This document shows positions 47,755 through 61,951 of a stretch of DNA of 64,000 nucleotides, piece by piece. Within the stretch, counting starts at the first letter, position 1. Each line of letters begins with the position of its first letter. Under the pieces are notes generated by a model. It was given only the letters and a program-made list of their open reading frames with translations. It searched no databases and was not told the origin of the DNA. A program made the position numbers and the translations under genes. The DNA comes from Selenomonas sp. TAMA-11512 (GTDB lineage: Bacteria; Bacillota; Negativicutes; Selenomonadales; Selenomonadaceae), in contig NZ_AP029018.1 in NCBI RefSeq assembly GCF_037076525.1, forward strand, positions 186,001 through 250,000, in the 5' to 3' direction.

Positions 47755-49800
47755 TCAAATCTGGAACTTGCCGATTTCGCCGTTGAGTTCCATAGCAACG
47801 TTTGCCAGACCTTCACTCGCTTCGGCGATGTTCTGCAGGGAGTGCGTCTGCGTTTCGACGGCGGCGTTTCCTTCTTCGCTCGTCGCGGCGTTTTCTTCCG
47901 CGAGCGCCGAAAGTCCCTGCACGACTTTCGCGATGGAATGGTTCTTTGCGGTGATTTCTTCCGTAGACTTGTTCATCGTCTCCATGACCTTTGTGGTCAT
48001 ATCGACGGCTTCGGTGATTTTCTGGAATTTCCCCTGCGTCTCTTCCAGACTCTCCTGCGTTTCGGCGAAGAGGCGCTTGGAAATCGCCATAGTGTTGACG
48101 GCTTCCTGCGACTTCGCCTTGAGTCCGACGATAATCGCGCTGATGTCGTCGGTGAAGCTCTTCGACTGCTCCGCGAGCGTGCGGATCTCCTCCGCCACGA
48201 CGGCGAAGCCGCGTCCCGCATCGCCCGCACGAGCCGCCTCAATCGCGGCGTTCAGCGCGAGGAGGTTCGTCTGCGCAGAGATCGACTGGATCATCTCACT
48301 TGCCTTCTCGATGTCCTCGGCGCTCTTGTTCGTTTCTTCGACGACGCGCGCGACATCTTCCGTAGCCTGCGCAGTCTCTCCAGATTTCTTCACAAGATGG
48401 ATGAGAATTTCCGCGCCCTCGTCCTTTTCTCGTCGGATATTGTCAGTTGCGTTGTTGATCTGGTCCAGGATCTCCTTGTTTTTGTCCATGAGCGTCATGA
48501 TTTCGTCGATATGGGTTGACGCACTTTGCGTATCCTGCGCTTGGCTCGTCGCGCCGTCAGCGATGTTGTGGATGGCCGATGCCACATCGCGCGCGGAATC
48601 CGCCGTGGACTGCGCCGTCGCGGTGAGCTCCTCGCTCGTCGCTGCAACAGACTGGGAGGAATTGCCGATCTTGTCGATGATGCCGCGAAGATTATTGCGC
48701 AGCATGGAGATGTTGCGGGCCATGGCGCCGATCTCATCGCCGCGTTCACGCAGGTAGGCGCGCGAATCATCCGCGCGTACGTCGAGATGGGCGAATTTTT
48801 CGATGATGCCTGTAATCTCGCCTAAAGGAACAGTGATGCGCTTACGAACGAAAAAGCTCATGAAGAGGAGCAAAAGGATGCAGCAGACGACAGCAATGGC
48901 GACGGCGGACCAGACCATTTTTTTGGCTGCTGCCGTGAACACGTCGCGCTCCGTCGAAGAAAACACCATCCATTCGGAATCCACTCCATCGAGGTGCATG
49001 GGATAAAAGCCGAAGACGGAATCAACGTCTGTACTTGACGATTTATGATCTATGGTCGTGATGGAATTCTCATCAAAGGCGTCGGCGATTTCTGCATCAG
49101 TCATGGGGAAGAAATCGTAGAATCGTTTGAGGATGAAATCCGTGTTCAGTCCGTGCGCAATATTGGTGCCTTGACGAGTGAAGGCGCCGTAGTAATTCTC
49201 TTTACTGCTGATTTTCTCGACATACTTCTGGATCTCCTGCAGATCGATGTTCGCGCAAACAACACCGATGCTCTGCCCGTTCACTTCGACGGGCATGACG
49301 TAGCGTGCCACCAGATGACCGTTCTGCGTAGCAGACGGCTCTGCGAGGAACGGTTTGCCCGTATTCTTTACGATCTTATACCAATCGCTTTGAACAGCAC
49401 CTTGCACCTCTCCCGTCTTGCCCTCATTGTCGGCATAGACATTCAACGACTCCGAGGGGGATTCGAGAATGACGCCAACTGATGTGATGCCGGCGCTTTC
49501 GGACATCTCGTCGAGCAGCATGGCTCGGATGGCATCGAGGCTGCCCTCGATCGGCATGGCGGCGAGCTGCTTCTGTACGCCTCTCTCCACGCGGCTGCTG
49601 ATGCGCACGGCGCGATTATAGCGCTGCTCGATCTGGTAGGCAATCTGCTTGTTTTCAAGCATCGTTTCGCGATTGCCAGCATCAATTAGCGCATCGAAGC
49701 TCATATAGGCGATAAAAGCTGTAACGATGATGAGCATGACGGTTATACCGACGGTATTCACCGCATTGATTTGAAAACCTATACCCCCACCTGAAAACAT
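47755..49800 (-). CDS. Methyl-accepting chemotaxis protein with dCache-type sensor
   Basis: A 681-residue chemoreceptor. An N-terminal helix (about 13-38), a periplasmic dCache-like sensor (about 40-285, with [12 protein letters not shown] and [19 protein letters not shown]), a second helix (about 292-315), HAMP, and a long cytoplasmic signalling domain with the hairpin tip [20 protein letters not shown]. Ligand unknown. Unusually the N-terminus [16 protein letters not shown] lacks positive charge before the first helix. Confidence 0.9.
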
Positions 49801-50205
49801 TGATCCTTTCTTTTTTCAGTCATGTCCCAGTCCTCCTTCTGACGCGTTTGCGCCTGACGATGGTTTTTACGGTTCATGAAAGTCGGAGATGCCGCCTGCC
49901 TGTCAGGCGTTCCTCTTCGCCGAATATCGTAAAACATGAATCATGTAGAGTATCCACGGTGCATGTCTCGTATCGCTTCGGCTTTCATGGAAAGGTACTT
50001 AATCAAATACCGATATTTCCCTTCGTTAAAAATTAAAAAAATCCTGCTGAATTTTAATTATTTTATAAAGAAAAAATTATATGAAAAATTGAAGGAATTG
50101 ATAAATGAAGCTGTTCGGATTGGCGGCAGATTTTTTGCGCTGTCAATAAGACAAAACGGACGCGCGAAACAGCGTCTCATTCCATGCCGGCTGCATCCGC
50201 TGACT
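49801..50205. other. AT-rich spacer between chemoreceptor gene and lon copy
   Basis: No recognisable gene. The part 50020-50110 is very AT-rich, with AAAATTAAA and TTTAATTATTTT arms that could form a hairpin. A frame running through it (with [16 protein letters not shown]) continues in phase into the lon copy. Positions 50160-50174 (ACGCGCGAAACAGCG) recur at 52433-52447. Confidence 0.5.
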
Positions 50206-50936
50206 CGCACTGCGAGTGAAAAAGTCGTCGAGGGCAAGGAGAGTCTCCCGTGGAAGCCTCGGGAAGACGAGCTCGGCGATGCGCTTGGCAGAAAGGTGTC
50301 CCGCCACGAGATGGCCGGCGATGTAAATCCGCCGGGCGTCGTCACGGGCCTCGCGTGGACCCCTGTCGGCGGCGAAATCCTCTTCATCGAAGCGACGAAT
50401 ATGCCGGGTTCCGGGGAGACCATCCTGACGGGACAGCTCGGCGATGTCATGAAGGAATCCGCGCGCATCTCGCTTTCCCTCCTTCGCTCGCGGCTTCCGC
50501 TTGGCGCCGTTGACTTCAAGAAGAGCGACCTGCATATCCACGTCCCCGCGGGATCGACGCCGAAAGACGGCCCCTCGGCGGGCATTGCCCTCTTTACGGC
50601 GCTCGCATCGCTCATGACGGGGCGCAGCGTCGATTCGAGGCTTGCCATGACGGGCGAGATCACGCTCCGCGGACAGGTCATGCCGATCGGCGGCGTGAAG
50701 GAGAAGCTTCTCGGCGCGCAGCGCGCGGGCATCAAGAGGGTGCTGCTGCCGTTGGAGAACAAAGACGATATGAAAGACGTTCCCGCCGAAGTCAAAGAGA
50801 CGATCGAAGTCGTCTTCGTCGAGACGATTGAAGATGTACTGCGCGAGGCGCTGGGGATCAACATCCCCAAGCTCGAGCAGATGGTGGCGCTCCACGCGTC
50901 GCAGATGCAGCCGATGGCGCTGCTGACAGAATAAGA
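50206..50936 (+). pseudogene. Duplicated 3' segment of lon (protease domain only)
   Basis: 50206-50936 matches 46899-47629 with a constant offset of 3307 and one difference that I could find (ATG for ACG, Met for Thr, 6 codons from the end). It encodes the last 242 or so residues of Lon: the protease domain with its Ser and Lys but no ATPase. An open frame starts upstream at ATG 49936 (or 49987) and joins it in phase, so a 333-residue chimera could be made. It has its own terminator. Recent partial duplication. Confidence 0.85.
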
Positions 50937-51114: not shown

Positions 51115-51171
51115 AAATGCTGATAAAATGAAGTCTGTGCCGAGATGATCGGGCTGAATTTATCAGTGCCT
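51115..51171 (+). repeat. Dispersed short repeat, copy B
   Basis: Identical to copy A for the first 23 bases. Its CTGATAAA (51120-51127) can pair with TTTATCAG (51159-51166), giving a hairpin in the leader of the next gene. Confidence 0.6.
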
Positions 51172-51201
51172 CCTAGAATGTGTGTGACAAGGAGATGCCT
51201 T

Positions 51202-52416
51202 ATGATTCAGCGTAAAAACTATATCGAGAAGCTTTTCTCCTGGCGAGATTCGCGTGTCATCAAGGTTGTTACAGGAATACGGCGCTGCGGCAAGTCTACG
51301 CTTCTGCTGCAGTATCAAGAGGAGCTGAAGCGAGTCGGTGTGACGGAAGAGCAGATTGTGGCAATCAACTTCGAGGAGTTGGAAAACGAATATCTATTGG
51401 ATTACAGACGTCTGCATCAGTACATCATGGAGCGAAAAGCGGCGGATAAGATGACGTATGTGTTCCTTGACGAGATACAGAAGGTACAAGACTTTGAAAA
51501 GGCTGTGGACAGCTTATATGTAAAGGAGAATATGGATATTTATATTACCGGCTCCAATGCCTATCTCCTGTCGAGTGACATTGCCACCCTGTTGTCGGGG
51601 CGCTATGTCGAAATCAAGATGCTGCCCTTGTCTTTTGCGGAGTACAGGTCGCTGATGTCTTTGGAAAAGGGTGAAGCGTTTGCGCGGTATCTTCGTACGG
51701 GAGGCATGCCTTACGCAGTGCAGCTGGGTACGGATGAATCCAAGATCGGCACGTATCTGGAGGGGATCTACAGTACAGTCATCATTCGGGATATCGAGGA
51801 GCGTCAGATGCGGGGAAGTACGAAAAAAGACGCGCGCAGGGTGACGGATATATTGCTCCTGAAGCGTATAGCGACGTATTTGGCGAGTGTAATAGGGAGT
51901 CCCGTATCTGTGCGGAGCATTACCGACTACCTCGTGTCGAGCGGACGAAAGGTCTCGCCGAATACGGTGAGCGACTATGTGGACACATTGCTGCAGGCAT
52001 TCGTGTTTTATGCTGCGGAGCGATTTGACATCGTCGGAAAGGAGCTCCTGCGTACGAATCAAAAGCTGTACATGGTGGATTTGGGACTCAGAAATTATAT
52101 CTTGCCGAGGCGAACATACGATTTCGGTTTCTCCTTGGAAAATGTCGTCTACTTTGAGCTGCTGCGACGGGGGTATAAAGTGTATGTGGGCAAGCAGGGA
52201 AAGGTGGAAATAGATTTTGTTGCCGAAAAGAACGCCACCTATACCTATATACAGGTCACGGCGGACATGACGGCGGAGGAGACATTTCAAAGAGAGATGC
52301 GTCCGCTGGAAAGCATACGGGATAACTACGAAAAGTACATTTTCACGATGGACTATAATACGCCGGGGGATTATGGCGGCATCCGGGTAAAGCATCTGCT
52401 CGACTGGCTGGGGTGA
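51202..52416 (+). CDS. AAA_14 / DUF4143 ATPase
   Basis: A 404-residue protein: N-terminal AAA domain with Walker A GIRRCGKSTLL (about 24-34), Walker B VFLDEIQKV and ITGSNAYLLS, then a winged-helix region and a C-terminal DUF4143 nuclease-like domain with ENVVYFELLRRGYKVYVG and EIDFVAEK (Glu-Asp... like PD-(D/E)XK folds). This family is widespread and variable in copy number in anaerobes, with no firmly known role. AAGGAG lies 8 bases before ATG 51202. Confidence 0.85.
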   Translation: MIQRKNYIEKLFSWRDSRVIKVVTGIRRCGKSTLLLQYQEELKRVGVTEEQIVAINFEELENEYLLDYRRLHQYIMERKAADKMTYVFLDEIQKVQDFEKAVDSLYVKENMDIYITGSNAYLLSSDIATLLSGRYVEIKMLPLSFAEYRSLMSLEKGEAFARYLRTGGMPYAVQLGTDESKIGTYLEGIYSTVIIRDIEERQMRGSTKKDARRVTDILLLKRIATYLASVIGSPVSVRSITDYLVSSGRKVSPNTVSDYVDTLLQAFVFYAAERFDIVGKELLRTNQKLYMVDLGLRNYILPRRTYDFGFSLENVVYFELLRRGYKVYVGKQGKVEIDFVAEKNATYTYIQVTADMTAEETFQREMRPLESIRDNYEKYIFTMDYNTPGDYGGIRVKHLLDWLG

Positions 52417-52482
52417 ATATCATCGGAGCCAAACGCGCGAAACAGCGGTTCATATCATGCATGCCTGCGCCGTCCGAGTGCG

Positions 52483-52506
52483 TCATTTAAAAAATGACAT
52501 TTGTCA
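52483..52506. promoter_or_regulatory. Overlapping palindromes upstream of the PTS operon
   Basis: TCATTTAAAAAATGA (52483-52497) and TGACATTTGTCA (52495-52506) are both perfect inverted repeats and share three bases. They lie about 105 bases upstream of the first PTS gene, where the product of the downstream response regulator gene could bind. That link is inference. Confidence 0.45.
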
Positions 52507-52610
52507 TGCGCCGCGGGGTCATCTTGTGACATATAGCAGATGAAAGCGAGAGGTCTCTTTTGATAGAATACAGGCAAAGATAAGTTGTGTACTCTATTAA
52601 GGAGGCAGCT

Positions 52611-53591
52611 ATGTTTGCAATTATTGTGGGTACTCACGGAAAGCTCGCGGAAGAGCTGGTCGAGACCGCCAAGATGATTGGCGGCGAGGCGCCGAATCTT
52701 CGCGCGGTCACGCTTCTTCCGGGAGAAGGACCGGACGATGTCATCGCCAAGTACAGGAAAGCTCTGGAGGAGCTGGATACGTCGGGCGGCGTCATCTTCC
52801 TCAACGACCTCTTCGGAGGCAGCCCGTACAACGCGGCCATCCGCATCATCCCGGAGAACGACACCTATGTCGCAGTCACCGGCGTCAACCTCCCCATGCT
52901 CCTGGAGCTCATCACGACGCAGGCGTTCATGCCGGATACGACGCTCGAAGAAGCGCTGGAGAAAGCCTTCAAGTCCGGAAAGACCGGCGTGCAGGTATTC
53001 CCGGAGGAGAAATCCCCCGTCGCGAAGAAAAAAGCGTCGGCTGCGAAGACCGCCGGCGGCGCAAAGAGTGCGAGCCCCGCTTCGACGGACGGCAAGCTCA
53101 TGGACATCGCTTTCTGCCGCATCGACGACCGCCTCATCCACGGACAGGTCAAGACGGTCTGGACAAAGGTGACGAACTGCAACCGCATCATGTGCGTTTC
53201 CGACGACGTCGCGCAGGATACGATGCGCAAGCAGCTGCTCCTGCAGGTCGCCCCTCCGGGCATCAAGGCGTATGTCGTCCCTGTGGATACGGCTGTCAAG
53301 GCTTACAAGGATCCGAAGTACGGGCTTTTCAACACGTTCTTCCTCTTCACGAACCCGACGGATGTCCTCCGCGCGATCGAAGGCGGCATTCCCTTCAAGT
53401 CGGTCAACCTCGGCGGCATGACGTACAAGGACGGCACGACCCTCATCAGCCAGGCGGTTGCCGTTTCGAAGAAGGACGCCGAGTCGCTCGTCAAAATCCA
53501 CGAGAAGGGCGTCGAAGTCGAAATCCGCATGCTGGCGTCAGACGTCAAGGGCGATATGATGGCAGCGCTCAAAGCGAAAGGGTTAGCGTAA
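52611..53591 (+). CDS. manX: PTS mannose-family EIIAB component
   Basis: A 326-residue fusion. EIIA domain about 1-125, with phospho-acceptor H9 in FAIIVGTHGKLAEEL and FLNDLFGGSP; an Ala/Lys/Ser-rich linker (about 140-160); EIIB domain with H176 in RIDDRLIHGQV. It passes phosphate from HPr to an incoming hexose or amino sugar. AAGGAGG lies 6 bases before ATG 52611. First of four-gene-type man operon (AB-C-D here). Confidence 0.92.
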   Translation: MFAIIVGTHGKLAEELVETAKMIGGEAPNLRAVTLLPGEGPDDVIAKYRKALEELDTSGGVIFLNDLFGGSPYNAAIRIIPENDTYVAVTGVNLPMLLELITTQAFMPDTTLEEALEKAFKSGKTGVQVFPEEKSPVAKKKASAAKTAGGAKSASPASTDGKLMDIAFCRIDDRLIHGQVKTVWTKVTNCNRIMCVSDDVAQDTMRKQLLLQVAPPGIKAYVVPVDTAVKAYKDPKYGLFNTFFLFTNPTDVLRAIEGGIPFKSVNLGGMTYKDGTTLISQAVAVSKKDAESLVKIHEKGVEVEIRMLASDVKGDMMAALKAKGLA

Positions 53592-53657
53592 ACAGCGCGT
53601 GTGCGTAAGCCTCCCCTTTTGCGGGAAGGCGATTACTACCTTATAGGAGGTACGAAA

Positions 53658-54470
53658 ATGGAAGTAACTACAATGCAGCTCGTCGCCCTCTTTTTCGTCG
53701 CCGGCCTGATCGGCGTCGGAAGTGTTGTCGATGAGTCGATGATCTATCGTCCGATTATTTCTTGCCCGCTTACGGGTCTTATCCTCGGCGATCTCACGAC
53801 GGGCGTCATCCTCGGCGGCACGCTTGAGATGCTCGCCCTCGGCTGGATGAACGTCGGCGCCGCCATGGCTCCGGACGGAGCGCTCGCCGGTGTCGTCTCG
53901 ACGATCCTCGTCGTCGTCGGACATCAGGATATCGGTACGGGCATTGCCCTTGCCGTGCCGCTCGCGGCTGCCGGTCAGGTGCTCACGATCTTCGTCCGCA
54001 CGATCACCGTCTTTTTCCAGCATTTAGCGGATAAGTTCGCGGCCAGCGGCAGCACCTTCGGCATAGAGATGTGCCACATTGCCGGCATGGGGCTGCAGTT
54101 CATCCGCGTCGCCGTCCCGGCTGTCGCCATCGCGGCTGTCGCCGGCACGGATGTCGTCAACGGTGCGCTCAACGCGATTCCCGAGGTCATCACACGCGGC
54201 CTGCAGGTCTCCGGCGGCTTCATCGTCGTCGTCGGATACGCGATGGTCATCAACATGATGAACGCCAAGTCGCTCATGCCCTTCTTCTTCCTCGGCTTCC
54301 TCATCGCCGTTTTCACCGATTTCAACCTCGTCGCATTCGGTGCGCTCGGACTCATCCTGGCTTTCTTCCACATCAAGAGCATCGAGCGTGAGGCAAATGC
54401 GTCCGCTGCCGGCGGCTCCGCTCCGACGGGCAACCCGCTCGATGATATCGACGACTCTGAGCTCATGTAA
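53658..54470 (+). CDS. manY: PTS mannose-family EIIC component
   Basis: A 270-residue membrane protein of the EIIC-Man family, with VDESMIYRPIISCPLTGLIL and GGTLEMLALGWMNVGAAMAPD near the start. Forms the sugar channel with EIID. ATG 53658 follows TAGGAGG by 8 bases. Confidence 0.92.
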   Translation: MEVTTMQLVALFFVAGLIGVGSVVDESMIYRPIISCPLTGLILGDLTTGVILGGTLEMLALGWMNVGAAMAPDGALAGVVSTILVVVGHQDIGTGIALAVPLAAAGQVLTIFVRTITVFFQHLADKFAASGSTFGIEMCHIAGMGLQFIRVAVPAVAIAAVAGTDVVNGALNAIPEVITRGLQVSGGFIVVVGYAMVINMMNAKSLMPFFFLGFLIAVFTDFNLVAFGALGLILAFFHIKSIEREANASAAGGSAPTGNPLDDIDDSELM

Positions 54471-54484
54471 GGGAGGGGCATAAA

Positions 54485-55306
54485 ATGGAAAAGAAGAACA
54501 TCACGAAAACCGATCTCATCAAGGTCTTTATTCGCTCCAACTTCCTCCTCGGCTCCTTCAACTTCGAGCGTATGCAGTCCATGGGATTCTGCGTCGCACT
54601 CATTCCCGCGCTCAAGAAGCTCTACTCGGGCGAGGCTCTCTCCGCCGCCCTTCGGCGACACCTCGAATTCTTCAACACGCATCCCTTCCTCGCCAAGGCG
54701 ATCATGGGCATCATCATCGCCATGGAGGAGAAAAAGGCAAACGGCGCGGACATTCCGGAGGCTACCATCTCCGGTGTCAAGGTCGGTCTCATCGGGCCTC
54801 TCGCGGGCGTCGGCGACCCGATTTTCTGGGGAACGCTCCGCCCGATGCTGGCGGCGCTCGGTGCAGGTATCGCCGTGTCCGGCTCCGTTGCGGGTCCGAT
54901 CCTCTTCTTTATCGCATTCAACGCGATTCGCCTCTTCGTGAACTACTACGGCGTCATGTACGGCTATGAAAAGGGTACGGAGCTCGTCACGGAAATCGGC
55001 GGCGCGAAGATCCGCTATCTCACGGAGGGCGCTTCCGTCCTCGGTCTCTTCGTCATGGGAGCGCTCGTCGCGAAGTGGACGAGCGTCAACATGCCGCTCG
55101 TGCTCTCCGAGTATGTTGCGCAGGACGGCACGCTCGTTGTCACGACACTCCAGTCCGTCCTCGACTCGCTCATGCCGTCCATGGTACCGCTCATCATGAC
55201 GTTCGCCTGCATGGCTGCGCTCAAGAAGGGTGTCAACGCGCTCGTCGTCATCGTCGCCCTCTTCGCGATCGGCATCGTCGGCTATGCGCTGGGGATCCTC
55301 GCGTAA
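54485..55306 (+). CDS. manZ: PTS mannose-family EIID component
   Basis: A 273-residue EIID-Man protein (SNFLLGSFNFERMQSMGFC near the start, GPLAGVGDPIFWGTLRPML in the middle). It works with EIIC in sugar transport. GGGAGGGG lies before the ATG, 14 bases after manY. Confidence 0.92.
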   Translation: MEKKNITKTDLIKVFIRSNFLLGSFNFERMQSMGFCVALIPALKKLYSGEALSAALRRHLEFFNTHPFLAKAIMGIIIAMEEKKANGADIPEATISGVKVGLIGPLAGVGDPIFWGTLRPMLAALGAGIAVSGSVAGPILFFIAFNAIRLFVNYYGVMYGYEKGTELVTEIGGAKIRYLTEGASVLGLFVMGALVAKWTSVNMPLVLSEYVAQDGTLVVTTLQSVLDSLMPSMVPLIMTFACMAALKKGVNALVVIVALFAIGIVGYALGILA

Positions 55307-55355
55307 GGCGAGTGTCCATTCGGCACATGCGTCGTAAATACATACTCGTCTGTTC

Positions 55356-55382
55356 GCCCCCTCGTTTGAGGGGGCTTTTTTC
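55356..55382 (+). terminator. Terminator of the PTS operon
   Basis: GCCCCCTC (55356-55363) with GAGGGGGC (55368-55375), then six T. Confidence 0.9.
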
Positions 55383-55437
55383 TGTGCAAAAGCTATGGCG
55401 GAATGCGTGAAAATGATATAGAATGAAAGCATATAGG

Positions 55438-55486
55438 AAGCGATGATAAAATGAAATCTGTCAGATTGGTGTAGAATCAGTGCTTC
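55438..55486 (+). repeat. Dispersed short repeat, copy C
   Basis: Matches copies A and B around TGATAAAATGAA. The bases after it differ from copy A almost only by transitions. GGAAGC (55436-55441) and GCTTCC (55481-55486) bracket the copy as a possible hairpin. Confidence 0.55.
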
Positions 55487-55519
55487 CATAACACAGAACC
55501 GTGAAGGGAGGGCATCTTC

Positions 55520-56503
55520 GTGTGGCAAAAGCGGTTCCTCGCTGCCTTTGTGCTCGCCGCGACCCTTCTCACAGTGCTCCTGGCGGGATTCTATGTCCGC
55601 GACTACTCCGCGGGGCGCAAGGAGGGCAAGAAGAAATTCGGCGCCATCTACATGACGATGAACAATCCCTTCTACCGGACGATGGACCTTGCGCTTCGGC
55701 AGAGCATCGAGGCAAAGGACGACATTCTCCTGTGCCGGGACGCGGCACTTTCTCCCGAGAGACAGCGCGAGGAGGCGGAAGCGCTCATCGAGGAGGGCTG
55801 CGCTGTTCTCTTTTTGAATGCGGTTGACGAAAGGGCGGCGGCGGACATCGTCCGGATTGCCGAGCGCAAGGGCGTCCTCGTCATTGCCGTCGATACGCGC
55901 ATCGAGGGTGCGGCACCTCCCGTGACGGTCACGTCAAGCAACTACGAGACGGGAAAAAGCCTTGCCACGCATCTGCTCTCCGTGCGCACATCGGCGAATA
56001 TCGTGCTCTTGGAGCACGATGAGGCGGCCTCGGCAAGAGAGCGCATACAGGGCTTCCTCGACGGGATTGCGGGACGCGACGGCTTCCTTGTCGTCGGCCG
56101 CCGCCCCTGCTATGGTCAGCTCGAGAAGGCGATGCCGCAGATGGAGGTGCTGCTCCGGGAGCATCCGGAGCTCGATGTCGTCGTGGCGCTCAATGATCCT
56201 GCGGCAATGGGAGCGATTGCGGCACTGGAGCACGCACAGCGTCTCGAGAACACGCTTGTCTACGGCGTGGACGGCGTGCCTGAAGCGCGTGAGCTCGTTC
56301 GCTCGGGACGTCTGACGGCGACCGCCGAGCAGGATCCGAGAGAGATGGCACGCCTTGCCGCGCAGGAGGCGTATCGTCTGCTCGAAAAGGCCGGACAGCA
56401 AGCGACGCTCCCCTCGGTCGGAGCACCGGCCCTGCATGAGCTGCCGACACGTCTGTTGACGTTGGAGACGGTCGAGAGAGGCGGTGCGGACAGATGGGAA
56501 TGA
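55520..56503 (+). CDS. Membrane-anchored sugar-binding protein, RbsB/XylF type
   Basis: A 327-residue periplasmic-binding-protein-like domain (Peripla_BP_4 style: FGAIYMTMNNPFYRTMDLAL, then VLFLNAVDERAA and VVALNDPAAMGAIAAL, and VYGVDGVPEA). A single N-terminal helix (about 6-26) without a clear cleavage site suggests it stays anchored. No ABC permease genes lie nearby; instead a sensor kinase gene overlaps its 3' end by 10 bases. It is likely the sugar sensor of that two-component system. GTG start with GGGAGGG upstream. Confidence 0.85.
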   Translation: MWQKRFLAAFVLAATLLTVLLAGFYVRDYSAGRKEGKKKFGAIYMTMNNPFYRTMDLALRQSIEAKDDILLCRDAALSPERQREEAEALIEEGCAVLFLNAVDERAAADIVRIAERKGVLVIAVDTRIEGAAPPVTVTSSNYETGKSLATHLLSVRTSANIVLLEHDEAASARERIQGFLDGIAGRDGFLVVGRRPCYGQLEKAMPQMEVLLREHPELDVVVALNDPAAMGAIAALEHAQRLENTLVYGVDGVPEARELVRSGRLTATAEQDPREMARLAAQEAYRLLEKAGQQATLPSVGAPALHELPTRLLTLETVERGGADRWE

Positions 56504-57789
56504 AAGCGGCGACGAAGAGCTATGCCGTCCTCTACGGGTTTAACGTGCTCGTCGTGCTGGCGATGGCGAGTTTTTTCTTCATCACGAGCGAGAAGATTGT
56601 CCGGACGTATCAGGCGCGGGACTTTTTGGAGCGAGTCCCTGTTCTTCCGATGGCGGCAAGCGAGGAACTGTTTTTGCTGCTGCTTCTTTTTGCGGCGCTC
56701 ATCTTCTGCAGTCTTTTCTTCCGGCGTCTGCAGCCGTCCTATTGGAGTTACGTTTTTCTCGCGCTTGAGGTCACTCTCACGCTCTGCATCCTGCGACTTT
56801 TGCACCTCGCTTACGACGGGATCCTGCTGCTCGTCGTTGTCGACCTGATGGCGGCGTATCGGGGCAGGCACCCCGAGCTCGTGCTCATCGTGACGCTCTT
56901 TCTCATTTATACGATCGGAAACGCGGAGCTCATGCGGCAGGCGTTCGTTGTCGTGCCGTTTGAGGCGTATCTATCCTACTATGACAGCGCCGCGCAGGGC
57001 ATGATTCGAGCTCTGTTTGGCTTCTTCCGGGCAGTAAATCTGATCCTCTTCGTTCACTCGATCTATCGTCTTTTGCGGGAGCAGTCGGAGGAAAAGGAAG
57101 AGATCCTGCGGCTCAACGAAGAGCTCGAGGATGCGAACTTCCGCCTGCGGGCATACGCGCTGGAAGCGGAAGAGGCGGCGGAGACGCGTGAGCGCAATCG
57201 CCTCGCACGGGAGATCCACGATACGATCGGACACGTCCTGACAGGCCTGGCGGCGAGTCTCGACGCGTGCATAGCGACATTCCGCGTCGCGCCGGAGTTC
57301 ACGGAAAAGGAGCTGCCAAAGCTCCGTGAGACGACGCAGAAGGGGATCCGGGATATACGCCGATCCGTCAAGAAGCTTCGTCCCGAGACATTGGAGGACC
57401 TGCCGTTCGAGGCGGCGATTCGGGAAACCGTCGCCCGCTACGCGGAGCAGACGGGGATGGAGGTGGAGCTCTCGATGGTCAACATCCCGCCGCTTCGCGC
57501 GGATATGGAGGATTCCGTCTACCGCATCGTGCAGGAGGGCATGACGAACGCGCATCGCCACGGCAAGGCGACGCGGGTCGATCTGACGATTGCGCGCGTG
57601 GGCGAAAAGCTGCACGTCGGCGTGCATGACAACGGCATGGGATCGCCGGTGATTGTGCCCGATTTCGGGCTTCGCCACATGGAGGAACGCGTCGCTCTTC
57701 TCGGAGGGACGATCAAGTTTTCGGGCATGAACGGGTTCCTGATTGAGGCGATGCTGCCGATCGCGGAAAAGAGCGAAGGAGGGATATGA
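56494..57789 (+). CDS. Sensor histidine kinase, NarL/DesK (HisKA_3) type
   Basis: A 431-residue kinase with six or so N-terminal hydrophobic segments (about 12-195) and little periplasmic sequence, a coiled-coil (about 200-230), the HisKA_3 phospho-site RLAREIHDTIGHVLTG with the histidine at about 241, and an ATPase domain with QEGMTNAHRHGKATRV and GLRHMEERVALLGG. Because it has no own extracellular sensor, it probably reads the sugar-binding proteins encoded on both sides. Confidence 0.9.
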   Translation: MGMKAATKSYAVLYGFNVLVVLAMASFFFITSEKIVRTYQARDFLERVPVLPMAASEELFLLLLLFAALIFCSLFFRRLQPSYWSYVFLALEVTLTLCILRLLHLAYDGILLLVVVDLMAAYRGRHPELVLIVTLFLIYTIGNAELMRQAFVVVPFEAYLSYYDSAAQGMIRALFGFFRAVNLILFVHSIYRLLREQSEEKEEILRLNEELEDANFRLRAYALEAEEAAETRERNRLAREIHDTIGHVLTGLAASLDACIATFRVAPEFTEKELPKLRETTQKGIRDIRRSVKKLRPETLEDLPFEAAIRETVARYAEQTGMEVELSMVNIPPLRADMEDSVYRIVQEGMTNAHRHGKATRVDLTIARVGEKLHVGVHDNGMGSPVIVPDFGLRHMEERVALLGGTIKFSGMNGFLIEAMLPIAEKSEGGI

Positions 57790-57790
57790 G

Positions 57791-58486
57791 ATGAAGATCA
57801 TGCTGGCGGACGATCAGGAGCTCATACGCGAGAGCCTGAAGGTCATCCTCTCCATGCAGGAGGACATGGAGGTGCTTGGCGTCTGCCCCGACGGACAGGC
57901 GCTCTTGGACAGGCTGGCGGATCTGGCTGCGCGCGGTGAGGCGCTGCCCGATTGTCTCCTCCTCGATATCCGCATGCCGGGGATTGACGGCGTCGAGGTG
58001 ACGAGACGCGTCAAGGCGCTCTATCCCGAAGTGCGCATCTTGATGCTGACAACATTTGACGACGATGAATACGTCTACAAGGCGCTCCAGTTCGGCGCGA
58101 GCGGCTATCTTCTGAAAGGGGTCTCGGTTGAGGAACTGACAAGCGCCGTTCGGCGTGTCGTCGAGGGAGGCACCATCGTCAACCCCGAACTTCTCGACAA
58201 GGTCATGCGCCTCTTCCGACAGATGACGCGAGGATCGGCGAGAGAGGAGCTTCTCATCCCGGTCAATGCGGCAGGCGGGAACGCCTTGACGAAGACGGAG
58301 AGGCAGATTGCGCAGCTCGTGGGGCGCGGGCTGTCGAATAAGGAGATCGCGGCAAAACTCCACTTCTCCGAGGGGACGATACGCAACGGGCTTTCCGCCG
58401 CGCTCGCCAAGCTTGAGCTGCGCGACCGCACACAGCTTGCCATCTGGGCAGTGCAGACGGGCCTCGCGAAAGAGACGCTGCCATGA
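57791..58486 (+). CDS. NarL/LuxR-family response regulator
   Basis: A 231-residue regulator. Receiver with D7-D8, phospho-acceptor D59 in LLLDIRMPGIDG, and ASGYLLKGVS; C-terminal LuxR-type HTH (LTKTERQIAQLVGRGLSNKE). Its start lies 1 base after the kinase stop and its own stop overlaps the next start (ATGA). The adjacent PTS operon is a plausible target. Confidence 0.92.
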   Translation: MKIMLADDQELIRESLKVILSMQEDMEVLGVCPDGQALLDRLADLAARGEALPDCLLLDIRMPGIDGVEVTRRVKALYPEVRILMLTTFDDDEYVYKALQFGASGYLLKGVSVEELTSAVRRVVEGGTIVNPELLDKVMRLFRQMTRGSAREELLIPVNAAGGNALTKTERQIAQLVGRGLSNKEIAAKLHFSEGTIRNGLSAALAKLELRDRTQLAIWAVQTGLAKETLP

Positions 58487-59796
58487 GACGGGAGAATATA
58501 TACAGAAGGCTTATCTCGGCCGCCGTATGCTTGCTTCTCGTGCTGCTCGCGGGCTATTGTGCCCATGCGCTGACGCGGCCGACGGAGCTGCGTGTCGCGG
58601 TCTTCGCGGGCAGTCACTGGGAAGTGCCGGAGAACGCGCCGTACCACGTGCTGGACGCGGCGATCGAGCGGTTCCGCGCGTCGCATCCGGACGTGGAAGT
58701 CACCTACGCGAGCGGGATTCGCAAGGAGGACTATCGCGAGTTCGTCGCGGGAGAGCTCGTCAAGGGCAGGGCGCCGGACGTGTTCCTCGTGCTTCGCGAG
58801 GACTTCGACCGATATGCGGAGATGGGCGTCTTGGAGCCGCTGGACGCCTATATAAAAGAGGACGCGGAGCTCGATGCGGCGCTGTACTATCCGGCGCTTT
58901 TGGCGGCGGGACAGGTAGGCGGCAGACAGTACGCGCTCCCTCTCGAGTGCTCGCCGCAGATGATGTTCGTCAACACGTCGCTTCTCGCGGAGGAGGGAAT
59001 CCCGCTCCCGAAGAGCGACTGGACGTGGCAGGAGCTTCTCTCCGTTACCTCGCGCGTCACGCGGGATACGGACGGCGACGGCCGGATTGACCGGTTCGGC
59101 ATCTACGATTACGGCTGGATGGACGCGGCGCGGACGAACGGCGTCAACTTGTCCGAGAGGGAGGCGTGGCTGCATGCCTTTGACGAGGTTCCCATGCAGG
59201 AGGCGATTCTCTTTGCGGCAAATCTCACGCGGGAAGGCGAAATGCAGCGGGCGAGAAGCGTTGACTTCGATGCGGGCAGGGTCGCGTTCCGCCCGTTTAC
59301 ATTCGCCGCATATCGCGCGTACAAACCGTACCCGTGGAGCGTCAAGAAGTACACGACATTTTCCTGGGAGATTCTGCCGATGCCGCGGGGCGGGCGCGGG
59401 GAGAACCGATCGAGCGTCGATGTGCTGCTCGTCGGCATGTCCGCGGAGAGCGCGCATAAGGAGCTCGCTTATGCCTTTTTGAAGGAGCTTGCCTATAGCC
59501 GGGAGGGACAGCGGGAGATCCTCGTCTACGCGATGGGGCTTCCCACGAGGCGGGACATCATCCGCTCCGAGACAATGAATGAGGTGCTCTACACGGAGAG
59601 CGGAGAACGCCGCCTTTCGTCCGAGTCTGTCCACGAGGTCTTGGAGCGGGCCGTGCATCTGCCGCACTTCGCTCGCGCGGAAGAGGCGGAGCGGCTGGCG
59701 ACAAAAACGATACAGCCGCTTCTGAGCGATCCGCAGGATGTATCGGAGATACTGATTCGACTGGGTCGAAAAGTGAGAATACTATTAGAGATATAG
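58483..59796 (+). CDS. Family 1 extracellular solute-binding protein, likely sensory
   Basis: A 437-residue solute-binding protein with an N-terminal helix (ISAAVCLLLVLLAGYCAHAL, about 12-31; GYC could be a lipobox-like cysteine) and UgpB/MalE-like blocks (VTYASGIRKEDYREF, LPLECSPQMMFVNTSLLAEE, DTDGDGRIDRFGIYDYG). Overlaps the regulator gene by 4 bases. No permease or ATPase gene is linked, so it likely serves the two-component system as a second ligand sensor. Confidence 0.85.
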   Translation: MRRENIYRRLISAAVCLLLVLLAGYCAHALTRPTELRVAVFAGSHWEVPENAPYHVLDAAIERFRASHPDVEVTYASGIRKEDYREFVAGELVKGRAPDVFLVLREDFDRYAEMGVLEPLDAYIKEDAELDAALYYPALLAAGQVGGRQYALPLECSPQMMFVNTSLLAEEGIPLPKSDWTWQELLSVTSRVTRDTDGDGRIDRFGIYDYGWMDAARTNGVNLSEREAWLHAFDEVPMQEAILFAANLTREGEMQRARSVDFDAGRVAFRPFTFAAYRAYKPYPWSVKKYTTFSWEILPMPRGGRGENRSSVDVLLVGMSAESAHKELAYAFLKELAYSREGQREILVYAMGLPTRRDIIRSETMNEVLYTESGERRLSSESVHEVLERAVHLPHFARAEEAERLATKTIQPLLSDPQDVSEILIRLGRKVRILLEI

Positions 59797-59983: not shown

Positions 59984-61951
59984 ATGAAGTTAAAGCCGAG
60001 GCTGATGCTGAGCATAGGAGTTCCGCTGCTCATCACATTCCTGATCATGGGCGGCGTCATCTATTCGATGGCTTCGAGCGCCCTGTCCGAAGCGACGAGG
60101 ACGTCGCTCGAAAACATGTCCGCCCGCTACGGAGAGTCGATTGAGGCGATTTCGCAGCGCAACGCGGCGATCGTCAATACGCTCGCGGGTTCTTGGAACG
60201 ACGGACTCCCCGAGGATGAGATGATTCAGAGCGAAGTAAAGCGTCTCGTCCATGAGAATCCGGCGATCAGCCTGGCCGCTTTCGGCCTGCCGGACGGCAG
60301 ATACATCACGTCGGGCACGGCAAGCGCCGACTACGATCCGCGCGTTCGTTCCTGGTACAAGGAGGCAATCGCTTCCAACGACTACGTTGTTTCCGATCCG
60401 TATACGTCCGCGTCGACAGGGAAGACGGTCATTTCGCTTTCGAAGGCGGTTCGCGTGGACGGCGAGATCGTGGGCGTCCTCCTCGTCAACGTTGATTTGG
60501 CATCGATTCACGATGCGCTCGCGGATGTCAAGGTGGGCAAGAACGGCTACCTCTTCGTCATGGACCGCAACTCGGCGTATGTCTATCATCCGAAGTATTC
60601 GCTTGAAGAGAAGCTCACAGACATCGACGGCGGCGCTTATAAGGATTTTGCAGAGAAGCTGCTTCAGGGCGGAGCACATATCGTCGAGTACAACTTCCAG
60701 GGGGAGGATCGATTCTACGCGACATATCCGATCAATTCCGTAAACTGGACGCTCGTCCTCGGCATTGAGGAATCGGAGGCATTTGAGGCTGTCACCGCGA
60801 TGTCCGTTGCGATTGCCGTGATCTGTGCCGTTGCGTTTGCCGTTCTCGGCGCCATCGTATTCTTTGTGTTGAATACCGTTACGAATCCCGTCGCATTCCT
60901 CGCCGAGACGGCGAACCATATCGCCAACGGCGACCTTTCGCATAAGATTCCGCAGTCGGATCGCACGGATGAGGTCGGAGCCCTGCAGAACAGCTTCATG
61001 AAGATGGTTACCTTCCTGCGGGAGATCGTCTCTTCGATGGCAAAGGCTGCCGAGCAGGTCTCCGCGTCGAGCCAGGAGCTCACGGCGAACGCCAACCAGA
61101 CGGCGACCGCTTCGCAGACGGCGGCGGAAGCCGTCGTCATGATTGCCGAGCAGTCCGCGGAGCAGAACAATTTGGTGGAGATTGCCTCCGACAAGGCGGA
61201 CGGCATGAATCGGCAGATGGAGGTCATATCGAAGGTGGTCGCCGACGTTACCGGCTCCGCCGACTCCACGCAGACAGCCACGAAGGAGGGCATTGTTGTC
61301 CTCGAAAAGGTCATTGCGGGTGTTGAAAGCCTTTCCGCCGGTGCGGCGAAGGTCGGCGAAGCCGTCCAGAAGCTCTACGAGGGGTCCAAGTCGATCGCGG
61401 AGATCAACGAGACGGTCACCGACATTGCCGGTCAGACGAAGCTTCTTGCGCTCAATGCCGCCATTGAAGCGGCGCGCGCCGGCGAGCAGGGCAGAGGCTT
61501 TGCCGTCGTCGCCGACGAAGTCCGCAAGCTTGCCGAGCAGTCCGAGAGCGCGGCGTCCGAGATCAGCGGCGTCATCGGGCAGAACTCCGCACAGATTCAG
61601 TCCGCCTTTGACTTGACGAAGGAGCAGCAGTCGGAATTCAAGGAGAACGTCGAACAGGTCAAGGTTGCCGGTGACAAATTTGATGCTATCGCCACCCTGA
61701 TCGAGAGCCTCTCGACGGAGATTCAGAAAGTCGCGGAGGTCAGCGAACAGATCAAGAAGGATACGACCGAGACGGGCGACTCCGTCCGACAGATTGCCAC
61801 AATGGCACATGCCGTACAGGAGAAGGCGACCGACGTCTCCGCCGTCTCCGAAGAGCAGGCGGCATCCACCGAAGAGATTGCGGCATCCTCGCATACACTC
61901 TCCGATCTGGCGCAGGAGATGCAGGCAGACGTGCAGAAGTTCAAACTGTAA
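59984..61951 (+). CDS. Methyl-accepting chemotaxis protein with dCache_1 sensor
   Basis: A 655-residue chemoreceptor: helix 1 (about 8-30), a dCache_1 sensor (about 35-260, with [18 protein letters not shown] and [20 protein letters not shown], the pattern of amino-acid-type sensors), helix 2 (about 270-295), HAMP, and a signalling domain with [29 protein letters not shown] lies before the ATG. Ligand unknown, though the YxxDPRxRxWY style is common in amino acid receptors. Confidence 0.92.

Follow-up and report, generated by a model that had tools for sequence, protein, structure and literature searches.

The 64,000-nucleotide stretch analyzed here (hereafter the window, to which all coordinates refer unless stated otherwise) corresponds to positions 186001-250000 of the single contig, 2,593,422 bp long, that makes up the genome of Selenomonas sp. 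TAMA-11512. It contains an operon for a mannose-family phosphotransferase system (PTS) followed by a compact unit encoding two solute-binding proteins (SBP1 and SBP2), a histidine kinase and a response regulator. A first-pass annotation of this DNA had proposed that the sensor unit is linked to the PTS, that the SBPs are signalling partners of the kinase, and that two overlapping palindromes before the PTS genes may be the target of the regulator. All seven genes of this locus are present:

52611-53591, + strand: EIIAB, fused mannose-family PTS components IIA and IIB (family searches)
53658-54470, + strand: EIIC, mannose family (family searches)
54485-55306, + strand: EIID, mannose family (family searches)
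55356-55381, + strand: intrinsic terminator between the PTS genes and the sensor genes
55423-55452, + strand: predicted promoter of the sensor operon (consensus match only)
55520-56503, + strand: SBP1, RbsB-like binding protein (Peripla_BP_4, 2.3e-38)
56494-57789, + strand: DesK-like histidine kinase (HisKA_3, 5e-17)
57791-58486, + strand: NarL/VraR/DesR-type response regulator (receiver and GerE helix-turn-helix domains)
58483-59796, + strand: SBP2, family-1 solute-binding protein, MalE/AbnE-like (SBP_bac_1, 1.5e-21)

The PTS operon (52611-55306) encompasses IIA, IIB, IIC and IID of the mannose/sorbose families; among the best NCBIfam models, mannose IIAB is matched below its cut-off, and IIC and IID are matched above the subfamily cut-offs of NF011647 and NF008315. 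In the sensor unit SBP1-kinase-regulator-SBP2 (55520-59796), the SBP1 and kinase genes overlap by 10 bp, the kinase and regulator genes are separated by 1 bp, and the regulator and SBP2 genes overlap by 4 bp, in agreement with the tight operon described in the first-pass annotation. Given the terminator at 55356-55381, the PTS genes and the sensor genes look like two transcription units. No ATP-binding cassette (ABC) transporter genes, that is, neither the permease nor the ATPase of an ABC sugar transporter, are found among the PTS and sensor genes, and across the whole 2.59 Mb genome no PF00528 permease domain is encoded within 110 kb of the locus, so the sensor operon indeed lacks an ABC permease, as had been noted. 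The sole Rbs-type ABC operon of this genome includes an SBP of its own as well as a LacI-like regulator (gene calls by eye). SBP2 has no second match in the genome at E <= 0.001, and SBP1 has two weak further matches, one of them beside the Rbs-type ABC operon.

Conservation of the cassette and its proteins

A search started with the kinase over 60 genomes (that of the window and 59 relatives, E <= 1e-30) identifies matches in 22, and SBP2 is encoded beside the kinase and the regulator in 19 of the 22 kinase loci (the window and 18 of the 21 relatives; L033, L046 and L051 have no adjoining SBP2). A scan of the genome contigs with SBP2 as a single sequence detects no relatives, but an alignment-based scan does, with 348 found. 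The tally of loci given below consists of the window and the best 80 of these 348 (81 loci) and therefore leans to close relatives; loci L031-L051 stand outside the tally, and several of them duplicate loci already in it. The order SBP1-kinase-regulator-SBP2, the conservation of which had been suggested as a check, is intact in 70 of the 81 loci; six more retain kinase-regulator-SBP2, and five are partial.

Within the span searched for partner transporters (from 8.5 kb before to 5.5 kb after SBP2), a mannose-family PTS is encoded near the cassette in 44 of the 81 loci and an Rbs-type ABC transporter in 14. The PTS partners, which lie before or after the cassette, include the type seen in the window, variants in which IIA and IIB are unfused, and a distant A-B-C-D type, and some loci of the window type (e.g., L081) hold only the IIB half at the EIIAB position. 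In a quick tree of the kinase and SBP2 (75 rows), in which the branch of the window is long, the partner label changes 10 times, compared to a minimum of 3 and a mean of 41.2 after shuffling; thus, the partners appear to be mostly inherited, yet switched several times.

The cassette of Centipeda periodontii (L081, 6385-11203) appears to be decaying: the EIID match ends at residue 208, SBP1 yields no match, the regulator matches residues 1-64 only, and the kinase and SBP2 persist. In L086, L092 and L113, several RbsA-RbsC pairs flank the cassette, an arrangement suggestive of duplication of the ABC module. Standalone cassettes of S. ruminantium (L065, L069, L072, L105 and others) share a conserved neighbourhood with one recurring protein family, a member of which (686 aa, from L069) shows an SBP_bac_3 match. 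A reverse-oriented gene family is found just upstream of the cassette in L073, L077, L084 and L122; its L122 member is an iron-containing alcohol dehydrogenase, and in L073 and L122 the gene sits between the PTS and the cassette.

The two SBPs of the cassette mostly lack the lipobox that is typical of the SBP1-type proteins on the ABC side. A lipobox is absent in 64 of the 69 sensor SBP1 sequences (present in 5) and in 79 of the 81 SBP2 sequences (present in 2), whereas it is detected in 13 of the 14 SBP1-type proteins encoded beside an ABC ATPase; the single negative among the latter (L118) looks like a lipoprotein missed by the search expression. Because the sensor SBPs mostly lack a lipobox, they look anchored by an uncleaved N-terminal helix. 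SBP1 is thus probably a membrane-anchored protein, and in the predicted structure of SBP2 (mean predicted local distance difference test score, pLDDT, 91), a helix of residues 2-31, taken here as a putative transmembrane (TM) anchor, precedes the SBP fold. This distribution of lipoboxes favours the proposal that the SBPs are signalling partners. The best fold matches of SBP2 are Lmo0181, AbnE and TMBP, and the protein keeps the aromatic and acidic invariants W46, D99, W180, W212 and W295. In SBP1, D125, R175, N225, D251 and Q271 are invariant across 19 sequences, and the polar ligand residues of the ribose-binding protein are kept, the comparison being based on the RbsB residues that we take to contact the sugar.

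The model of the kinase (pLDDT 78.5; predicted template modelling score, pTM, 0.46) shows six putative TM helices at the N-terminus and lacks an extracytoplasmic domain, so that the earlier description of a kinase without a sensor domain appears to be correct as far as an extracytoplasmic domain is concerned but overlooks the predicted membrane helices. If the N-terminus is inside, the loops presumed to face the outside comprise residues 38-54 and 143-164, approximately (about 17 and 22 residues, respectively), in which A41, F44, L45, P52, Y159 and Y163 are invariant or nearly invariant. A Pfam search with the N-terminus of the kinase yields no family above its cut-off. The C-terminal half matches UhpB among others, and the best matches among solved structures are DesK for the kinase and VraR, followed by DesR, for the regulator. 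The recognition helix of the regulator is conserved over the aligned loci (mostly SEGT[VI]RN, with a few changes in the first residues).

A predicted bipartite operator upstream of the partner transporters

The region between the PTS operon and the preceding gene contains the following elements:

52482-52498, no strand: first palindrome, GTCATTT-N3-AAATGAC, overlapping the second palindrome
52494-52507, no strand: second palindrome, primary operator ATGACATTTGTCAT, predicted regulator binding site (comparative)
52527-52542, + strand: secondary operator element TGACA-N5-CAGATG, TGACATATAGCAGATG (operator alignment)
52540-52569, + strand: predicted sigma-70 promoter of the PTS operon, ATGAAA-18-TAGAAT, with extended -10 (consensus match only)

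A motif-free count of gapped palindromes upstream of the partner transporters (duplicates included) identifies TGACA-N2-TGTCA as the top palindrome, with 21 of 49 PTS upstream regions, 5 of 16 ABC upstream regions and none of 89 cassette upstream regions. When two mismatches are allowed, ATGACANNTGTCAT is present in 43 of the 45 unique PTS upstream regions (18 perfect) and in all 15 unique ABC upstream regions. The same threshold is reached by 21 of 747 upstream regions of other genes in these loci, 12 of which share with a neighbouring gene an operator that is already in the count, leaving 9 of 735; order-1 Markov shuffles give about 1.75 of 49 PTS upstream regions. The primary operator of the window is the only perfect ATGACANNTGTCAT in its 2.59 Mb genome. 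Together with the partner counts, these results support the predicted link between the sensor operon and the PTS, and the recurring gene order and the conservation of the second palindrome indicate more than chance.

The secondary element starts 33 bp (about 3 helical turns) downstream of the start of the primary core and overlaps the weak predicted -35 element. Among 56 unique aligned operators (41 PTS and 15 ABC), an exact TGACA recurs at +33 in 16 and at +34 in 5, and inspection by eye often shows CAG-N-TG after this second TGACA. Such a layout, with two sites spaced by about three helical turns and the downstream one touching the -35 element, would be expected of an activator. The first palindrome is only partly conserved, with a GTCA half-site at -12 in 6 of the 56 operators. 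Both palindromes exist as annotated; broad conservation is seen for the second alone, which forms one half of the predicted bipartite operator. A search for direct-repeat motifs upstream of the transporters yields nothing consistent. Autoregulation of the cassette through the same operator was considered and rejected: none of the 82 unique cassette upstream regions contains it with at most 1 mismatch, and 12, including that of the window, contain it with 2, so that such control is unsupported in general and possible in a few species.

For the genome-wide analysis, the cassette-positive set comprised 18 of the 22 genomes in which the kinase search gave a match (without G001, G030, G032 and G023), and the cassette-negative set comprised 18 of the 20 genomes of the same family in which it gave none (without G034 and G036). 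The cassette-positive genomes contain 17 perfect palindromes, 10 of which precede mannose-family PTS genes. In G016 and G026, where no PTS is encoded within 8 kb of the cassette, all three perfect sites precede mannose-family PTS genes (one shares a contig with the cassette, at a distance of about 17 kb, and the remaining two are on contigs other than that of the cassette). In G031, each of the two perfect sites precedes PTS genes; because the cassette there (L040) starts at a contig end, it was not counted as isolated. Of the 18 cassette-positive genomes, 8 contain the bipartite pattern, at one site each and in all 8 before PTS genes, in three cases (G016, G002 and G026) away from the cassette; the pattern occurs in 0 of the 18 cassette-negative genomes, and the reversed-pattern control gives 0 matches. 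In the cassette-negative genomes, the operator is present at up to 2 mismatches before 0 of 21 EIIA-family genes, of which 16 are real upstream tests, the other 5 being LevR-sized with no true upstream region; several of the 16 are DhaM-like. Among 30 EIIA loci from a longer list for the cassette-positive genomes, 3 have a perfect operator, 2 have one with 2 mismatches, 24 have at least 3 mismatches, and 1 is too short.

A putative hexose sensor and the alternatives

These observations are best compatible with a four-component hexose sensor that activates its cognate transporter, an explanation to which we assign a probability of about 77%. The gene order, the operator, the lack of a lipobox and the conservation of the pocket come from comparison; the anchoring, the activation rather than repression, the contact between SBPs and kinase, and the ligand are what we infer. 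Under this scheme, SBP1 (RbsB fold) and SBP2 (MalE/AbnE fold) would be anchored on the outside of the cytoplasmic membrane through N-terminal helices that stay uncleaved, and would report extracellular sugar to the six-TM, DesK-like kinase with its two short outside loops. The kinase would phosphorylate the NarL/VraR-like regulator, which would bind the bipartite operator (ATGACATTTGTCAT and TGACA-N5-CAGATG 33 bp downstream, overlapping the -35 element) and, when bound, would activate the mannose-family PTS operon. The sensor operon would be transcribed from its own promoter, probably outside the control of this operator (its best upstream match has 2 mismatches). As a whole, the interpretation given in the first-pass annotation is supported by the sequence comparisons.

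The signal perceived by SBP1 is most likely, as a best guess, a hexose such as mannose or fructose, and that of SBP2 is possibly an oligosaccharide. One lead is the mannose family of the partner PTS. In addition, the 14 ABC-linked loci encode a fructokinase-like PfkB (10 loci), a class II aldolase (6) and a D-lyxose/D-mannose isomerase (3), these families being named from one representative each, with the fructokinase and isomerase NCBIfam models matched below their cut-offs. The SBP1 profile also matches the “sensor protein” 2x7x at 7.7e-32, which we take to be the fructose sensor BT1754. According to PMC3404733, the periplasmic sensor domain of BT1754 binds fructose. A broader and more tentative idea, held at slightly less than even odds, is that of a portable receptor in which two anchored SBPs of unrelated families assemble on one kinase devoid of an extracytoplasmic domain, docking on its short loops or its TM bundle, so that a monosaccharide and an oligosaccharide would be sensed together; the transporter partner would have been exchanged between PTS subtypes and an Rbs-type ABC system, with the operator kept.

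Several results weigh against the four-component sensor. In 23 of the 81 loci, neither a PTS nor an ABC transporter is found in the span searched (several of these loci are at contig ends), and two PTS loci (L094 and L100, the two misses among the 45) show no operator. An exact TGACA at +33 or +34 is present in just 21 of the 56 aligned operators, and 10 of the 18 cassette-positive genomes contain no exact bipartite match. Of the 17 perfect palindromes, 7 are not before PTS genes, two of these being inside RbsC-like frames, and another 4 occur in the cassette-negative genomes, where no PTS or ABC gene is recognised within 1.5 kb of any of them; hence, the 14-mer alone is not fully specific. 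When 2 mismatches are allowed, the pattern is unspecific genome-wide (135 sites vs 68 in the control). Finally, the pTM of the kinase model is low.

It is conceivable, with odds appreciably below even, that sensing is left to SBP1 alone, with SBP2 co-transcribed by happenstance and acting as scaffold, chaperone or independent capture protein. SBP1 has the clearer ligand pocket, and in known systems each kinase is paired with a single type of SBP (XylFII-LytS and CuaDSR; PMC10384115); however, of the 22 loci obtained in the kinase search, 19 include SBP2 (in the loci of the tally it is present by search design), and SBP2 keeps its five aromatic and acidic invariants and almost always lacks a lipobox. 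Alternatively, the SBPs might feed a distant ABC transporter, with the kinase sensing the state of the membrane or of a transporter in the manner of UhpB and the SBPs not being signalling partners. UhpB works with UhpC in sensing, and the kinase model without an extracytoplasmic domain, the similarity of the C-terminal half to UhpB among others and the Rbs-type ABC operons near 14 of the 81 loci are compatible with this possibility. It is nevertheless unlikely, given that the SBP1-type proteins at the ABC ATPase genes are separate and carry a lipobox in 13 of 14 cases, that no PF00528 permease lies within 110 kb of the locus, that the Rbs-type operon has its own SBP and LacI-like regulator, and that PTS transport requires no binding protein. 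The first-pass annotation had named an ABC permease using these proteins as evidence against itself: in the genome of the window none is near, but some cassettes of Firmicutes adjoin an ABC transporter, which comes with its own lipoprotein-type SBP.

The operator could also belong to another, global regulator, e.g., a catabolite regulator, with only an indirect link to the cassette. The palindrome does occur away from PTS genes, and its binding by the regulator is a prediction, but this explanation is improbable: the bipartite form is found in 0 of the 18 cassette-negative relatives and the operator before 0 of their 21 EIIA-family genes, the operator precedes both PTS and ABC partners of the cassette, and the recognition helix of the regulator is conserved across loci. 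That the sensor operon and the PTS are unrelated and adjoin by chance is strongly disfavoured by the operator results, and we consider it very improbable. A terminator separates the two gene sets, 23 of the 81 loci have no nearby transporter, and adjacency can mislead (PMC11113362); yet the cassette recurs next to mannose-family PTS operons that differ in composition, on either their upstream or their downstream side, and the operator is conserved in 43 of 45 PTS upstream regions, with the bipartite pattern distributed as described above.

Relation to known systems and adjoining genes

Similarly to the XylFII-LytS-YesN system (Clostridium, xylose), the cassette includes a gene for an RbsB/XylF-fold SBP beside a kinase and a regulator and would control a transporter, and the SBP1 profile matches 5xsj and 5xss, which we take to be XylFII, at about 3e-23. 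LytS works with an AraC-type regulator. In contrast, the kinase of the window is DesK-like, with a HisKA_3 domain and no extracytoplasmic domain, the regulator is of the GerE/LuxR type, there is an additional SBP from a different family, and a PTS is the more frequent partner, so that the cassette falls outside the XylFII-LytS type. The extracytoplasmic domain of LytS binds XylFII, a complex mentioned in PMC10384115. The same paper describes CuaDSR (Ruminiclostridium cellulolyticum, cellobiose), which likewise has a dedicated sensor SBP, separate from the transport SBP, by the kinase and the regulator; unlike in the cassette, its one SBP is a predicted lipoprotein, its kinase has an extracellular domain and two TMs, and its target is an ABC transporter.

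DesK-DesR and VraS-VraR, the nearest solved structures, share the HisKA_3 kinase core and the NarL-type regulator, which places the kinase and regulator of the window in this class. These systems sense the state of the membrane or the cell wall without sugar-binding proteins, whereas the unit described here encodes two proteins of the sugar-binding type. BT1754 of Bacteroides resembles SBP1 in its periplasmic fructose-binding sensor domain (PMC3404733), but this domain is fused to the kinase, and SBP1 is a separate protein. Mannose PTS controlled by LevR/ManR belong to the same transporter family; however, no LevR-type protein is encoded among the genes adjoining the PTS of the window, and elsewhere in the genome there is one long frame with an EIIA domain (877 aa, at 2503958).

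As in three-component sugar sensors, an SBP gene forms one unit with the kinase and regulator genes (70 of 81 loci), and the sensor SBP is separate from the transport SBP (no permease within 110 kb; on the ABC side, 13 of 14 SBP1-type proteins carry a lipobox). To our knowledge, the characterised SBP-activated kinases combine one SBP type with an extracytoplasmic docking domain. About ten or eleven SBP-activated kinases have been characterised, judging from PMC9602780 and PMC11113362. In the latter, SBPs encoded beside a kinase are also reported not to interact with it, and the SBP-kinase contact therefore stays an inference here. Searches of open-licence PMC articles turned up none whose title or abstract opening describes a unit with two SBP families, a kinase devoid of an extracytoplasmic domain and a PTS target. 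Although SBP-activated kinases as such are known, an SBP-assisted two-component system with two SBP families appears to be a new arrangement, and the combination of two different SBPs with a kinase that lacks a docking domain poses a clear mechanistic question. The cassette is widespread and suggests that the PTS, a transporter independent of binding proteins, would here be governed by them, and the predicted operator is directly testable in common gut and rumen Firmicutes.

The surroundings of the locus include two genes related to chemotaxis: a dCache methyl-accepting chemotaxis protein (59984-61951), the gene of which begins 187 bp after SBP2, and a second, similar to genes for methyl-accepting chemotaxis proteins, on the minus strand (47755-49800). 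An open reading frame at 49936-50934 looks like a Lon fragment (by eye), with a C-terminal half that resembles the Lon S16 protease domain and an unrelated N-terminus. The gene at 51145-52416, which ends 77 bp before the operator, encodes an AAA_14/DUF4143 ATPase, a member of a family that is often mobile.

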